NCBI RefSeq assembly: GCF_000695095.2
Contig: NZ_CP011454.1
Coordinates: forward strand, 1,798,001 to 1,862,000
DNA from: Gemmatimonas phototrophica
GTDB taxonomy: Bacteria > Gemmatimonadota > Gemmatimonadetes > Gemmatimonadales > Gemmatimonadaceae
Reading direction: 5' to 3'
Length of the DNA: 64,000 nt
In this document: positions 9,972 to 16,646 of the stretch, piece after piece
Numbering within the stretch: position 1 is the first letter of the stretch
Layout of the letters: the number at the start of each line of letters is the position of its first letter
Notes under the pieces: generated by a model
The model's input: the letters and a program-made list of their open reading frames with translations, nothing else
Databases searched by the model: none
Told to the model about the DNA's origin: nothing
Position numbers and translations under genes: made by a program

Positions 9972-11681
9972 ATGTCCCAGCACCCGCTCCCCAGCCGCCA
10001 CGCCATGCAGGGCCCCGAGCGCGCGCCGCATCGCGCGTTCTACTATGCCATGGGGCTCACGAGTGAAGAGATCGCTCGGCCGCTGGTCGGAGTGGTCTCC
10101 AGCTGGAATGAAGCGGCACCGTGCAACATCTCGCTCAAGCGCCAAGCCGAGGTGGCCAAGCGCGGTGTGATTGCCGGCGGTGGCACACCACGTGAGTTTT
10201 GCACCATTACCGTGACCGACGGCATTGCCATGGGTCACGCGGGCATGAAGGCCTCGCTGGTGAGTCGCGAAATCATTGCCGACAGTATCGAACTCACCGT
10301 GCGCGGACACTGCTACGACGCGCTGGTGGGCATTGCCGGCTGCGACAAGACGCTCCCCGGCATGATGATGGCCATGGTGCGCCTCGATATTCCAAGCGTG
10401 TTCCTCTACGGCGGCTCCATTTTGCCGGGGCGCTACCAGGAGCGCGACGTTACGGTGCTCGATGTATTCGAGGCAGTGGGCTCGTACGCGGCAGGCAACA
10501 TGTCGCTCGAAGAGCTGACCGCATTGGAGAAGGTTGCGTGCCCCGGCGCCGGCTCCTGCGGCGGACAGTACACCGCCAACAGCATGGCGTATGTGTCAGA
10601 GGCCATGGGGCTCGCATTGCCTGGCTCCTCCAGCCCGCCAGCGGCGTACGAAACGCGCGACGTGCACGCCGAGCGTGCCGGTGAAACGGTTATGCGCCTG
10701 CTGCGTGAGGGGCTGCGTCCGCGGCAGATCGTGACGCGTCGCGCGCTGGAGAATGCCGCGTCCGTGGTGGCAGCAACGGGTGGCTCAACCAACGCCACGT
10801 TGCACTTGCCGGCCATTGCGCACGAAATGGGGATCGACTTCGATCTCTTTGACGTCGCCGAAGTGTTCAAACGCACACCACTCATTGCCGATCTCAAGCC
10901 GGGCGGCAAGTATCTCGCGAAAGACGTGCACGACATTGGTGGCGCCACGGTCATTCTCAAGGTGCTGCTGGATGGCGGCTTTTTGCACGGCGATTGCATC
11001 ACGGTGACGGGTAAGACCATTGCGGAGAATCTGGCCGATGTGGTGTTGCCCAGTGATCAGAAGGTGGTCATGCCCGTCTCGCAGGCTATCTCGCCAACCG
11101 GTGGCCTGGTGGGACTGAGCGGCAACCTCGCCCCCGATGGCGCCATCGTGAAGGTGGCGGGGCTATCGCACCTTACGCACAGTGGCCCGGCGCGGGTCTT
11201 TGACAGCGAAGAGGCATGCTTTGCCGCCGTCATGGAGCGTCGCTACGAAAAGAACGATGTGCTGGTCATTCGCTACGAGGGGCCGCGCGGTGGCCCGGGC
11301 ATGCGCGAAATGCTCAGTACCACCAGCGCGATTTACGGGCAGGGCATGGGCGAGCATGTCGCGCTCATTACCGATGGCCGTTTCAGCGGTGCCACACGCG
11401 GGCTGTGCATTGGTCATGTAAGCCCCGAGGCCGCCGTTGGTGGACCACTTGCACTGATTCGCGAGGGGGACATCATCGACATTGATGCGGGTGCGGGCAC
11501 GTTGCACGTGCAGTTGAGCGACGAGGAACTCGCCGCTCGGCGCGCCGAATGGACGCCACGCGCCACGGATTATCAGAGTGGTGCGATCTGGCGCTACGCG
11601 CAGACCGTAGGCTCGGCGCGTCACGGCGCCGTGGTGCATCCGGGTGGCAAGGCCGAGACGCATGTGTATGCGGATGCGTGA
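9972..11681 (+). CDS. ilvD: Dihydroxy-acid dehydratase
   Basis: 569 residues, typical for IlvD. It catalyses dehydration of 2,3-dihydroxy-3-methylvalerate/isovalerate to the 2-keto acids in isoleucine and valine synthesis, in the cytoplasm, using an iron-sulphur cluster. Diagnostic motifs: [13 protein letters not shown] (cluster Cys), [16 protein letters not shown] (second Cys) and [13 protein letters not shown]-like '[14 protein letters not shown]'. The C-terminal domain ends normally. The first ATG at 9972 lacks an evident Shine-Dalgarno sequence. It stands alone rather than in an ilv operon and is followed by hairpin repeat copy A. Confidence 0.97.
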
Positions 11682-11687
11682 ACACTC

Positions 11688-11823
11688 GGGTGCGCGCGAG
11701 GCGCCCCGGCGACACCGCTCACGCCGTTCGCGAATGCTCTTCGGGGGTGGCCGAGCCCGCGCTGACGCGCGCGCCGGCGTCACCCCCTCAGGGATTCGCT
11801 CACTGCCGTGAGCGGCGCCGCCG
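11688..11823 (-). repeat. Hairpin repeat, copy A
   Basis: One of four copies of a GC-rich element of about 135 bp whose core reads TCCCTGAGGGGGTGACGCCG and CTCGGCCACCCCCGAAGAG. Copy A is inverted relative to the others. The core hairpin is at 11743-11787: outer stem GGGGGTG/CACCCCC, inner stem GCCG/CGGC, then an 8-bp GC stem with one mismatch around a GTCA loop. It starts right after the ilvD stop codon. Confidence 0.85.
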
Positions 11824-11936
11824 TGGCTTGCGTCGTGGTGAGCCACGTTGCGGTTTGCCTGAGCGCTTGCGCGCTAGTGCAACAACGCCGGAACTGCCGC
11901 AACTGCGCTTCTTCCAACGCGCATCGCGCATACTCT

Positions 11937-12059
11937 CCGGCGGCCCCGCCGCCCCGGGGAGCGAATCCCTGAGGGGGTGACGCCGGCGCGCGTAAGCGCG
12001 CTCGGCCACCCCCGAAGAGCATTCGCGACCGGGGTGGCGGGGCCGCTGAGAGCCACCGC
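11937..12059 (+). repeat. Hairpin repeat, copy B
   Basis: Plus-oriented copy. The core hairpin at 11973-12013 is GGGGGTG-AC-GCCG-GCGCGC-GTAA-GCGCGC-T-CGGC-CACCCCC, a 17-bp interrupted stem. Relative to copies C and D an A-T pair in the inner stem is replaced by G-C on both sides, a compensatory change. Copies A and B point away from each other around 113 bp with no gene. Confidence 0.85.
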
Positions 12060-12128
12060 GTGACCTACCGCACGACCCACCGCACGCCCACTGTACGAGC
12101 GACCCCCAAGCAATTCAGAATTCCGCGA

Positions 12129-12365
12129 ATGCCAACGCAACTCACCATCGCCTTGTCGCTCGTCTGCACGCTGGTCGCCGCGTACTTCTGGAAGTCGCGG
12201 CCACAAAAGCGTTCAGCCGCGCTCTTTCCGCTTGGCATTAGCGCCGTGCTCGGCTCCTCGGTTGCGAAGGACTCAAACGTGTGGTGGTCCATGGCGCTCA
12301 GCGTATTGGCCATCGCGCTGTTCCTCACCGCCCTCTGGATGCAAAAGTCCGAGCCAAAGAACTAG
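12129..12365 (+). CDS. Small two-span membrane protein between hairpin repeats
   Basis: 78 residues from the ATG at 12129; a GTG at 12060 would add a 23-residue, basic, unconvincing leader. Two hydrophobic segments (about 4-18 and 52-70, VWWSMALSVLAIALFLTALWM) are separated by KSRPQKRSAA, giving a helical-hairpin topology. No family recognised. No strong ribosome-binding site. It lies between hairpin repeat copies B and C, with the downstream repeat starting almost at its stop codon, an arrangement repeated for the next small gene. Confidence 0.55.
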   Translation: MPTQLTIALSLVCTLVAAYFWKSRPQKRSAALFPLGISAVLGSSVAKDSNVWWSMALSVLAIALFLTALWMQKSEPKN

Positions 12366-12375
12366 CGATGGCACC

Positions 12376-12590
12376 GCGCGCGCAGAGCGCCGCGCCCAAC
12401 CAGCACCACGAAACCAGCCCCGGCGGCCCCGCCGCCTCGTGAGCGGATCCCTGAGGGGGGGGCCGCCGGCGCACGTCAGTGCGCTCGGCCACCCCCGAAG
12501 AGAGCAGCGAACGGGGTGTGCGGGAGCCACCGGGGAGTCTCGCGCGCATCGAGTCCGCCAGCCACCGAGGCGCCTCGCGCGCACCGAGTC
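12376..12590 (+). repeat. Hairpin repeat, copy C with duplicated tail
   Basis: Plus-oriented copy. Homology with copy D starts with GCGCGC(A/G)AGCGCCGCGCC just after the upstream stop codon. The core hairpin is at about 12455-12496 with inner stem GCGCAC/GTGCGC and loop GTCA. The tail 'GCCACCG...CTCGCGCGCA(T/C)CGAGTC' is present twice (from 12526 and 12561), a 35-bp tandem duplication. Confidence 0.85.
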
Positions 12591-12701
12591 TGCAAGCCGA
12601 CGTGATTGGCCGTACGTCGGGCGACGTATGGTCGAGACCTCTGGGCGCCGGCATCGTGTGGCACACCCTGCGCGCGCCGACATCTGGAGAGAGGACATAT
12701 C

Positions 12702-13190
12702 GTGCCAACAACCATCGGAATTGCCCGAAACGTGTGCAGCCGCGCAGTTGGCGCCTTGCTGCTATTGTCGCTGTGGCGCGCGTCGGAGCTCGAGGCTCAA
12801 GTGCGAACCGCCTCAGCGCTGTCGCTGAACGAATCCGCACGGCAAACAGCCGTTGCCCAGCGCGTCGACAGCGCTACTGCAACCTTGCGGCAATTCTCCA
12901 ATATGCCGGAGACAAACAGTTCACGTGCCCCACTCATCGGAGCCCTGATTGGCAGCACCCTGATGACCGCGTTTGCTGCGGACGAATGCTCACGCCTCGG
13001 GTGCATGTCCCCGCTGCCGTTGGTCTTGGCCGCAGGTGCCGGGGCCATGGCGGGTGCCAGTGTGGGGTGGATCGTGAAACGCTTGAGCGCACCACTTCCG
13101 GCCGAAGTCCCACCCGGTTCGATGACTCGGCCCGATAACCAACTCGGCGACCTCCCCCAACCGCGCGCGCAAAGCGCCGCGCCTCCATGA
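12702..13190 (+). CDS. Small exported protein with glycine-rich transmembrane segments
   Basis: 162 residues from a GTG at 12702, preferred because GAGAGGA lies just upstream; the frame opens at 12606 but that leader is Arg/Cys-rich and lies next to the repeat tail. A signal sequence (about 14-30) ends near LEAQV. Two hydrophobic, Gly/Ala-rich segments follow (APLIGALIGSTLMTAF and PLVLAAGAGAMAGASVGWIV), resembling glycine-zipper membrane proteins. A DECSRLGC motif between them has two Cys. The last codons (PRAQSAAPP) overlap the start of repeat homology, so the repeat appears to encode the C-terminus. Function unknown. Confidence 0.55.
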   Translation: MPTTIGIARNVCSRAVGALLLLSLWRASELEAQVRTASALSLNESARQTAVAQRVDSATATLRQFSNMPETNSSRAPLIGALIGSTLMTAFAADECSRLGCMSPLPLVLAAGAGAMAGASVGWIVKRLSAPLPAEVPPGSMTRPDNQLGDLPQPRAQSAAPP

Positions 13191-13340
13191 GTACGTCACG
13201 GAGCAAGCCCCGGCGGCCCCGCCGCCCCGTGAGCGGATCCCTGAGGGGGTGACGCCGGCGCACGTCAGTGCGCTCGGCCACCCCCGAAGAGAGCAGCGAA
13301 CGGGGTGAGCGGGAGCCACCGGGGCGCCTCGCGCGCACCC
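13159..13340 (+). repeat. Hairpin repeat, copy D
   Basis: Plus-oriented copy. The core hairpin is at 13245-13285: GGGGGTG-AC-GCCG-GCGCAC-GTCA-GTGCGC-T-CGGC-CACCCCC. It is nearly identical to copy C over the central 90 bp. It ends 7 bp before the stop codon of the sortilin-like gene on the opposite strand, so it fills the convergent gap. Confidence 0.85.
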
Positions 13341-13346
13341 ACAGCG

Positions 13347-16300
13347 TCACCCAATCGGCTTCTTGGGCACAAACACGTTCGGCACACCCAGCCGAGACAG
13401 CAGCGCGTTGAACTCCGAAAGCTCCTTGTCCTCGAGCCCCTGCAACGTCTTCAGCTGTACATCGAGCTTGCCGCCCAAGTCACTCGTGATCTCCCCGTGC
13501 TGACGCGTGGGCGGGTTCGTGCCCTCGAGCACCTGCGCGTTCAACGAGATGAACATCTGATACAGCTTGATCGGATAGTTCAACGTCGCCTGATCTGCCT
13601 TGGTGTACACCTCGTAGATCTCGGCGCGCACCGCCTCCAGCTTCTTGCGCAGTGCCGTCGACGCATCGCGCACCTCCTTGGCGTACGCCTGTGAGCTGGC
13701 CTGACGCGCGCGTTCATCCAGCTGACGCTGCAGGTCCTGCACGCGCTGCACCGTTTCCGTGATGCTCGTGATGCGCGCGCCCACCGCGTTGGCCGCATCG
13801 AACTGCGCCTTGTACTCGGCGGCCGTCATGTTCAAGCGCGGATCCGGCTTTACCGCAAACGCACGCGTAAGCGTATCCTTGCCCACGATGAGCCGTACCG
13901 CGTAGTCACCAGGCACCGCCACCGGACCGTCGGTGGAGCCGTCGTCCACAATGGCCCCCGGAATGGTCTTGGGCGCCGGGTAGCTCAGGTCCCAGATGAA
14001 GCGGTTCGTGCCGGCGCGTGCATGCACCACCGAATCCGCCGCCTCGTAGCTCAACGCTTCGGCGCGCTGCTCCAGGCGAATCTTGGCGGCAGCGGAATCG
14101 GCCGCCGGGTTCCCCGTGCTGTCCTTTCGCGGGGCATCCGCGCTGCTGAACGTACGCACCACCTTGCCCGACGCTTCGAGGAACTGCACCGTGATGGGTG
14201 ACGACGGCGCGCTCTTGAGCCAGTAGTCCACGCTCACGCCGTACCGCGGGTTGGCGCCGGCGTTGCCGCCGCCACGACCACCGCCCATGCTCGTCCAGCG
14301 AATGGCCGAGGCTGGGGCAAACAGGTGCACCGGCTTGGTGGTAATGGAGTCGGCCAGTGTGCGCAGCGGCGAGATGTCATCAAGTGACCAGAAAGCGCGC
14401 CCGTGTGTGGCCACAATGAGATCGTTGTCGTGCACGCGAAGGTCACGCACCACGGCCCGCGGCAGGTTGAGCTGCATGGGCTCCCACGCCGCGCCGTCGT
14501 TGAACGAGACGTACACGCCCGTTTCCGTTCCGGCAAAGAGCAGGCCGCGGCGTTTGGTATCACTGCGAATGGCGCGTGTATACGAGCCCATGGGAATCCC
14601 CGCGTCAATGCGCGTCCACGTGGCTCCGTAATCAGTGGTCCTGTACAGATACGGCGCGAAGTCGTCCTGCTGATACCGATTGGCGGCGACGTACGCTGTG
14701 CCGGCATCGAAGGGCGACGCTTCAATGATCGACATGCGCGCGAACGCCCCCATTCCCTTGGGCGTCACGTTGGTCCAGGTGGCACCATTGTCGCGTGACA
14801 CATGCACCAGGCCGTCGTCGCTTCCTGTCCAGAGCACACCCTTGGCTACCGGCGATTCGGCAAAGGCAAAGATGGTCGCGTACCACTCGGTGCCGGTCAT
14901 GTCACCGGTTACCGGGCCACCACTGCGCCCCAGTGTGGCCGGGTCATGTCGCGTGAGATCACCCGAGATCTTTTCCCAGCTGCCGCCCTGATTGCGCGAG
15001 CGCCAGAGAAACTGCGACGCCGTGTACAGCACGTCGGGGTCGTGCGGCGAGAAGTGAATGGGGAACGTCCACTGAAAACGCTGCGGTACATCAGCGGCGG
15101 CCATACCGTCGTAGTTGCCCAGCCACACCGACACATCGCGACGCATGTTCGTCTTCTTGTCGTGACGGGTCAGCTGGCCCATGTAGCAGCCACCAAAGGT
15201 CACGTTGGGGTCGCGCGGGTCCACGGCAATGTAGGCGTTTTCACAGCCGGCCACCGGCCACCAGTCGCGCTCCGTAATGCGCCCATTGTCGGAACGGTGC
15301 GCAATGTTCACCGACGTGTTGTCCTGCTGCGCGCCCAGAATGCGATACGGCACCGACTGGTCGGTGGTCACGTGGTAGAACTGCGACGTGGGCTGGTTGT
15401 CCTGCGAGCTCCACGTGCGCCCACCGTCGAGCGATACCGACGCGCCACCGTCATTGCCGTTGATGAGCCGCTGCGGGTTCTTGGGGTCCACCCACATGAT
15501 GTGCGTGTCGCCGTGTGGCACCCGCGTGGTGACAAACGTTCGGCCGCCATCAATGCTGCGGCTTACCTGCAGGTTCATCACGTACACGGTGTTTTCGTTC
15601 ACCGGGTCGGCCGTGATGCTCATGTAGTAGAACGGGCGCACGACAAACTTCTGATCGCTGTTGGTGCGCGTCCAGGTGGCGCCGGCGTTGTCGCTGCGGA
15701 ATACGCCACCCAATGAGTCCTGCGCTTCAATGTTGGCGTACACGCGCTGGCCATTGGCGGGCGAGACACTCACGCCAATCTTGCCGATGAGCCCCTTGGG
15801 CATGCCGGGATTGTAGGTCAGTTCGCTCCAGGTATCGCCACCGTCGGTGCTCTTCCAGAGTCCGCTGCGTCCGGCGCCGGCGTTCATCCCCCAGGGCGTA
15901 CGCTGGAACTTCCACATTGAGGCGTACAAAATGCGCGGGTTGGTCACATCCAATGACAGGTCGGCGGCGCCGGTGCTGTCGTCGATGAACAGCACCTTCT
16001 TCCACGTCGCGCCGCCATCCAGCGTACGAAATACACCGCGATCGGGCGACGGGCCAAAGGCATGACCCAGCGCGGTCACGTACGCCACATCGGGGTTGGT
16101 GGGGTGCACCCGCAGACTGGTGATGTGCTGCGTGTTGGCGAGTCCGCGCGGAGTCCACGTGTCACCACCGTCGGTGGTGCGATACACACCCGTGCCGTAC
16201 GTGATGTCTTCGCGCGGCTTGCCTTCGCCGGTGCCTACCCAAATCACATTCGGGTCACTGGGGGCCACCGTAATGGCGCCCACCGACGAAATGTCGGTCT

Positions 16301-16646
16301 TGCCATCGGTAATGTTTTCCCACGACTGCCCGGCGTTGCTGGTCTTCCAGACGCCACCGTTCACGGCGCCAAAGTAGAACACCAGCGGACGGGTGGGGTC
16401 GCCGGTCACCGCCGTGGAGCGGCCGCCGCGGAAGGGGCCCACCAGGCGCCAGCGCAGCGACTTGAGCGCGTTGTTGGTCTTGGTGCCGTCGGTGTAGAGC
16501 GCCGGGTCGTACGTCGGGCGCTCGCCGGCGGACGGGCGGGGGGCGCGCTGGGCGCCAGCAGAGCATGGGACCGTCAGCGCTAACAGTGCCGCGGTCGTAG
16601 ACAAAGTGGCGCACGCGCCACGGAGCAGAGTGCGGGGAAAGGGCAT
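13347..16646 (-). CDS. Sortilin/VPS10-like BNR-repeat secreted protein
   Basis: 1099 residues with a signal peptide ending near SAGAQR. Multiple BNR/Asp-box motifs of the form S-x-D-x-G-x-T-W are visible through the first 700 residues (SNAGQSWENI, TTDGGDTWTPR, TLDGGATWKK, STDGGDTWSEL, SRDNGATWTNV), building beta-propellers of the sortilin/VPS10 type. The C-terminal third carries an Ig-like 'WDLSYPAPKTIPGA...VPGDYAVRLIVG' domain and a coiled-coil rich in Arg/Gln/Glu (about 985-1050). Homologues are abundant in Gemmatimonadota and Acidobacteria, often beside S9 peptidases, as here. Enzyme activity is unproven; it is often misannotated as glycosyl hydrolase. It diverges from the S9 peptidase at 16726 across 79 bp. 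Confidence 0.85.
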   Translation of the reverse strand: MPFPRTLLRGACATLSTTAALLALTVPCSAGAQRAPRPSAGERPTYDPALYTDGTKTNNALKSLRWRLVGPFRGGRSTAVTGDPTRPLVFYFGAVNGGVWKTSNAGQSWENITDGKTDISSVGAITVAPSDPNVIWVGTGEGKPREDITYGTGVYRTTDGGDTWTPRGLANTQHITSLRVHPTNPDVAYVTALGHAFGPSPDRGVFRTLDGGATWKKVLFIDDSTGAADLSLDVTNPRILYASMWKFQRTPWGMNAGAGRSGLWKSTDGGDTWSELTYNPGMPKGLIGKIGVSVSPANGQRVYANIEAQDSLGGVFRSDNAGATWTRTNSDQKFVVRPFYYMSITADPVNENTVYVMNLQVSRSIDGGRTFVTTRVPHGDTHIMWVDPKNPQRLINGNDGGASVSLDGGRTWSSQDNQPTSQFYHVTTDQSVPYRILGAQQDNTSVNIAHRSDNGRITERDWWPVAGCENAYIAVDPRDPNVTFGGCYMGQLTRHDKKTNMRRDVSVWLGNYDGMAAADVPQRFQWTFPIHFSPHDPDVLYTASQFLWRSRNQGGSWEKISGDLTRHDPATLGRSGGPVTGDMTGTEWYATIFAFAESPVAKGVLWTGSDDGLVHVSRDNGATWTNVTPKGMGAFARMSIIEASPFDAGTAYVAANRYQQDDFAPYLYRTTDYGATWTRIDAGIPMGSYTRAIRSDTKRRGLLFAGTETGVYVSFNDGAAWEPMQLNLPRAVVRDLRVHDNDLIVATHGRAFWSLDDISPLRTLADSITTKPVHLFAPASAIRWTSMGGGRGGGNAGANPRYGVSVDYWLKSAPSSPITVQFLEASGKVVRTFSSADAPRKDSTGNPAADSAAAKIRLEQRAEALSYEAADSVVHARAGTNRFIWDLSYPAPKTIPGAIVDDGSTDGPVAVPGDYAVRLIVGKDTLTRAFAVKPDPRLNMTAAEYKAQFDAANAVGARITSITETVQRVQDLQRQLDERARQASSQAYAKEVRDASTALRKKLEAVRAEIYEVYTKADQATLNYPIKLYQMFISLNAQVLEGTNPPTRQHGEITSDLGGKLDVQLKTLQGLEDKELSEFNALLSRLGVPNVFVPKKPIG

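Follow-up and report, generated by a model that had tools for sequence, protein, structure and literature searches.

The genus Gemmatimonas carries a family of hairpin-forming repeats that is probably a non-autonomous mobile palindromic element, restricted to this genus and composed of long hairpins that move as head-to-head pairs. Observed directly are the family, its structure, the pairing of its stems, its arrangement in pairs, one duplicated pair and one site that the G. phototrophica lineage has gained.

Four long hairpins lie between ilvD and a VPS10-like gene

The window that we analysed is a 64,000-nt stretch (positions 1798001–1862000) of the 4.72-Mb, single-contig genome of Gemmatimonas phototrophica. 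The initial annotation had reported four repeat copies at 11688–13340 of the window, A on the minus strand and B, C and D on the plus strand, and all four are present there, flanked by ilvD (dihydroxy-acid dehydratase; 9972–11681, plus strand) and a sortilin/VPS10-like gene (13347–16646, minus strand), both given for context only. Two core motifs of the repeat each occur four times in the window, against 0.07 and 0.00 occurrences expected from shuffling. Copy A (11688–11826, minus strand; 83.7 bits with covariance model R1) has its 3′ end 6 nt past the ilvD stop codon and forms a divergent pair with copy B (11935–12047, plus strand; 86.8 bits), the two being separated by a spacer (11827–11934) similar to that between other divergent neighbours of the family. 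Beyond copy B lie orf1 (12129–12365, plus strand), which encodes 78 aa and by eye resembles a small membrane protein, and copy C (12416–12550, plus strand; 78.1 bits), whose 3′ end recurs after it as a 35-nt tandem duplicate (12553–12587, plus strand; repeat family D3). The array is completed by orf2 (12702–13190, plus strand; 162 aa), which is single copy in the genome and has no Pfam match, and by copy D (13206–13340, plus strand; 96.7 bits), the best-scoring intact copy, whose 3′ end lies 6 nt from the stop codon of the VPS10-like gene, ahead of it.

The 17-bp stem described at first exists but accounts for just the inside of a much longer one, as the true hairpins in the window span about 110–140 nt and extend to the ends of the repeat, with about 45–49 pairs per copy (RNAfold). 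Predicted folding energies of copies A to D are −100.7, −98.2, −91.8 and −98.0 kcal/mol, compared with about −61 to −73 kcal/mol for dinucleotide shuffles (z-scores of −6.4, −9.5, −5.8 and −7.9, respectively). The apical double change from A-T to G-C is correct as annotated (GCGCAC/GTGCGC in copies C and D, GCGCGC/GCGCGC in copy B), and copies B and D do retain both bulges, AC and single-base. Copy C no longer has the AC bulge (its TGAC stretch is missing and it reads GGGGGGGGCCG) and its stem is disturbed, and the apex of copy A is altered.

Across the family the hairpins are 110–180 nt long and carry the 5′ motif GCAGCC or CACCACGA. The basal stem is changeable in sequence and retains its pairing. 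Inside it lies a GCGnnTC/GAnnCGC helix, then a CCCTGA/GAAGAG internal loop, and then a near-invariant helix, GGGGGTG-AC-GCCG/CGGC-CACCCCC, that ends in a variable tip; the AC bulge, a single unpaired base and the internal loop are also near-invariant. One subfamily is without the apical helix (GGGGGC-acc-GCCCCC), indicating that the tip is dispensable. Half-copies spanning the hairpin tip to the 3′ end occur at L066:3740–3799, L066:18047–18109, L063:5404–5459 and L070:5325–5387, as if copying had stopped or begun at the apex. We also note several copies from whose 3′ end a short tandem array starts (L064:4900–4930, L068, L043 and L056); tandem-repeat tails at copy 3′ ends were not significantly enriched (31/89 versus 28/125 in the control, p = 0.06).

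The family is restricted to the genus Gemmatimonas

A DNA search of the G. phototrophica genome gave 15 matches, and a search with a covariance model derived from 41 core sequences gave about 22 distinct copies (the weakest counted at E = 0.001). The family is present in 15 of 30 Gemmatimonas genomes, this one included. Outside the genus there were only two weak matches (E of 0.003–0.004; L203 and L204), which by eye are without the family architecture and which we find unconvincing. Most of the named contigs that carry the conserved core belong to Gemmatimonas MAGs. Exact core matches in Pseudomonas, Phycisphaeraceae and Actinobacteria have no hairpin and were taken as chance. We found no family copies on viral contigs, and a literature search on Gemmatimonas repeats returned nothing.

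Stem pairs covary beyond controls

In genus-wide copies, pairing is covariant beyond both shuffled and slid controls. The core alignment contains 78.5% paired cells (73.5% shuffled), 15 stem pairs changed on both sides (9.7 ± 1.3 shuffled) and 79 double-change cells (27.3 shuffled), with a covariation score of 0.150 (0.054 shuffled, 0.027–0.056 for slid controls), figures that overstate the evidence because alignment cells from related sequences and subfamilies are not independent. Column pair 11–92 is paired in all 41 sequences, as GC in 17, AT in 13 and CG in 11, and in 88% of trials exchanging arms among copies gives poorer pairing than a copy's own two arms. Ten stem pairs vary among four acnA-locus copies, of which three belong to the G. 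phototrophica genome and one to genome G003. Watson-Crick pairs fill 37 of the 40 cells, eight of the ten pairs being Watson-Crick in every copy, and nine of the ten are complete double changes (e.g. AT/TA/CG), transversions included, with half-changed intermediates nearly absent. GC drift does not account for the changes, since they include swaps of A-T to T-A and of C-G to G-C.

Pairing at the DNA level fits better than a strand-specific RNA

The compensatory changes had been attributed at first to selection on a structure in RNA or single-stranded DNA; the RNA part of this proposal is not supported. If an RNA were selected on one strand, G-U pairs on that strand should exceed A-C mispairs. 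We counted 22 G-T versus 14 A-C mispairs in the core and 114 versus 150 in the basal stems (p = 0.03), the latter slightly favouring the other strand. This absence of a one-strand bias in the wobbles, together with the rarity of half-changed intermediates, does not indicate a strand-specific RNA; a hairpin in DNA or single-stranded DNA, with correction of one palindrome arm by the other, fits better. We thus favour pairing at the DNA level, perhaps with template switching from arm to arm.

These same observations make it unlikely that the hairpin acts in transcripts (e.g. as a 3′-UTR stabiliser or regulator) and that selection keeps its pairing as RNA, even though the covariation is genuine, folding is far better than that of shuffles, many copies lie within about 10–150 nt of a stop codon and orthologous positions are kept between species. 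Further evidence against a functional RNA is that the curated covariance models of Rfam gave no match to the family, that the genes neighbouring the copies share no common function, that a terminator-like hairpin (by eye) separates the element from the gene at the acnA locus, and that paired copies face gene starts as well as gene ends. A rule that copies always lie antisense behind a stop codon was discarded, there being only a bias (45 versus 18) whose counts are not independent across species, as was an iron theme suggested by the Fe-S enzymes encoded by ilvD and acnA, the other neighbours being unrelated.

Mutation alone, with a polymerase switching templates and copying arm onto arm while the structure itself is not selected, would produce both the complete double changes in nine of ten varying pairs at the acnA locus and wobbles that favour neither strand. 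We nevertheless consider it quite unlikely as a full explanation, because arm copying on its own should erase bulges and mismatches, whereas the AC bulge, the unpaired base and the CCCTGA/GAAGAG loop are near-invariant and the inner helix is conserved in sequence. The conserved bulge and internal loop suggest instead that DNA-level pairing is accompanied by recognition, and that some structure in the inner part of the hairpin is likely recognised.

Divergent pairs are likely the mobile unit

Family members less than 1 kb apart are arranged head-to-head in 27 cases (minus then plus), many of them mutually orthologous, in tandem (both plus) in three and convergently in none; within the G. phototrophica genome alone, divergent pairs outnumber convergent ones seven to zero. 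Two such pairs, at 40.5 kb and 54.9 kb, occupy unlinked loci of this genome with unrelated flanks and share both a left hairpin with the start of the spacer (98.8% identity over 167 bp) and a right hairpin with a trailing half-copy (95% over 205 bp). The 40.5-kb pair sits between two parS-like TTTCACGTGAAAC sites beside parA (L066:3360–3830). When we looked for an empty site in relatives, six (G004, G005, G006, G009, G016 and G018) had the same parA interval without the pair, in intergenic DNA too diverged for a base-exact comparison. The presence of one pair at two unlinked loci and the interval without it in six relatives indicate that the divergent pair is likely the mobile unit. The earlier suggestion that the repeat is not only a relic is borne out by the recent duplicates and the one gained locus. 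Duplication of a whole pair is clear in one case only, and at most sites movement is rare or old, since many loci are orthologous across species. In genome G018 the hairpin body is lost, with both ends left, where G006 has a full hairpin. We saw no clean target-site duplication at the duplicated pair, the parA interval or the G018/G006 locus.

Two side observations concern the parA region. The position of the 40.5-kb pair between parS-like sites makes it a possible site of an effect on chromosome partition. Separately, a second palindromic family (CTGCCGTCCGCCGTCTCGGCG...CGCCGAGTnTnGCAGACGGCAG) occurs in the parA–SIMPL interval of G006, G009 and G018 (L257, L258 and L259), where tandem amplification between two parS-like sites has taken it from about three to eight copies.

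Species differ at two loci in the orientation of the gene that the copies enclose. At the acnA locus, prx is on the acnA strand in G005, G006, G013, G016 and G018 and on the opposite strand in G. phototrophica and G003. In the ilvD to VPS10-like interval, G003 has one copy and its orf1 homologue is on the opposite strand; in this interval G009 has one clean pair and G013 no copy. The flipped genes are thus bordered by inverted copies, and we infer that the copies caused the flips.

The G. phototrophica genome lacks Y1 and IS110 transposases

Consistent with the statement in the initial annotation that no transposase is linked to the copies, searches of the G. phototrophica genome for Y1 and IS110 transposases found neither, and no autonomous partner of the element came to light. 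IS110 was accordingly rejected as the mover, as was a RAYT-driven REP, since this genome has no Y1 gene and the Y1 genes of eight relatives have no family copy nearby, most being bordered by GGGGTCAGAGTC repeats instead. Y1 genes are commoner in genomes that carry the family (7/15 versus 1/15; Fisher p = 0.035, a statistic that ignores relatedness). In several Gemmatimonas genomes they are bordered by GGGGTCAGAGTC / GACTCTGACCCC repeats (L212–L219; spacer of L146:1210–1305), which are likely a separate REP-RAYT system.

Most members of the genus, G. phototrophica included (4315487–4316422; L085), have an integron integrase, and on a G013 contig (L048) 115 bp separate the integrase start from a copy, the only such case and probably a coincidence. 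That the hairpins are integron-type, attC-like folded sites separating small cassettes such as orf1 and orf2 is very improbable, and we rejected this reading because integrases are not linked to copies: although hairpins with extrahelical bases do separate small open reading frames in the window, and the genome has an integrase, the alignment by eye contains no RYYYAAC/GTTRRRY boxes, none of 13 scanned integrase loci holds a copy and integrase presence does not track that of the family.

Discussion

In the mechanism that we propose for this mobile palindrome, the moving unit would be two hairpins arranged head-to-head around a spacer, with outer ends of the CACC/GGTG type. The hairpins would form in single-stranded DNA, e.g. 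when the DNA is replicated, and an enzyme supplied in trans would recognise them through the conserved helix and bulges, while the basal arms would be kept matched largely by one arm templating the other. Local arrays such as A−, B+, C+, D+ would arise through duplication, and inverted copies would have permitted flips of the intervening gene. It is possible, though doubtful, that the family represents a new class of mobile palindrome, in which head-to-head pairs of 110–180-nt hairpins are recognised as folded single-stranded DNA by an enzyme other than Y1 and stems copied arm to arm let the sequence drift while the fold stays.

The Gemmatimonas repeats would be a mobile palindrome family in a phylum for which the searched literature gave none, and what moves, a giant hairpin pair, would do so without the usual RAYT enzyme. 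They also offer a clear example from nature of perfect compensatory changes that may stem from correction of DNA palindromes, in which case covariation tests that are used to call RNA genes need a check on the strand bias of G-U pairs.

Among known systems, integron attC sites resemble the family in being folded hairpins with extrahelical bases and differ from it in their R and L boxes and linkage to an integrase. The Galileo foldback element of Drosophila resembles it, by analogy only, in its very long terminal inverted repeats and association with chromosomal inversions; Galileo encodes a transposase (PMC3688188), whereas the Gemmatimonas family has no such gene. ERIC/IRU and YPAL elements are closer, as they too are intergenic, about 100–200 bp long, with a long stem-loop and without a known transposase (PMC2229807). 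YPAL, like the Gemmatimonas family, is not A+T-rich and is without TA ends (PMC2229807). By description, rather than by sequence, the family is likewise an intergenic palindrome of 100–200 bp without a gene of its own; it differs in that ERIC and YPAL have so far been found only in another phylum and in that its mobile unit is a divergent pair, with no target duplication seen. REPs are 20–40 nt long with a GTAG or CGTC tag, and the replicating unit of REPINs consists of two imperfect palindromes in inverted orientation on either side of a spacer (PMC3116915, PMC8266576), an architecture that the Gemmatimonas pairs share, along with being intergenic, non-autonomous and bulged in the hairpin. 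Here, however, each half is a hairpin of 110–180 nt without a GTAG- or CGTC-type tag, and about 20 copies reside in a genome without a Y1 transposase, so that in tag, size and transposase the family is not a REPIN member. Our best reading is that it works like REPINs or ERIC/YPAL, as a REPIN- or foldback-like element with unusually long hairpins.
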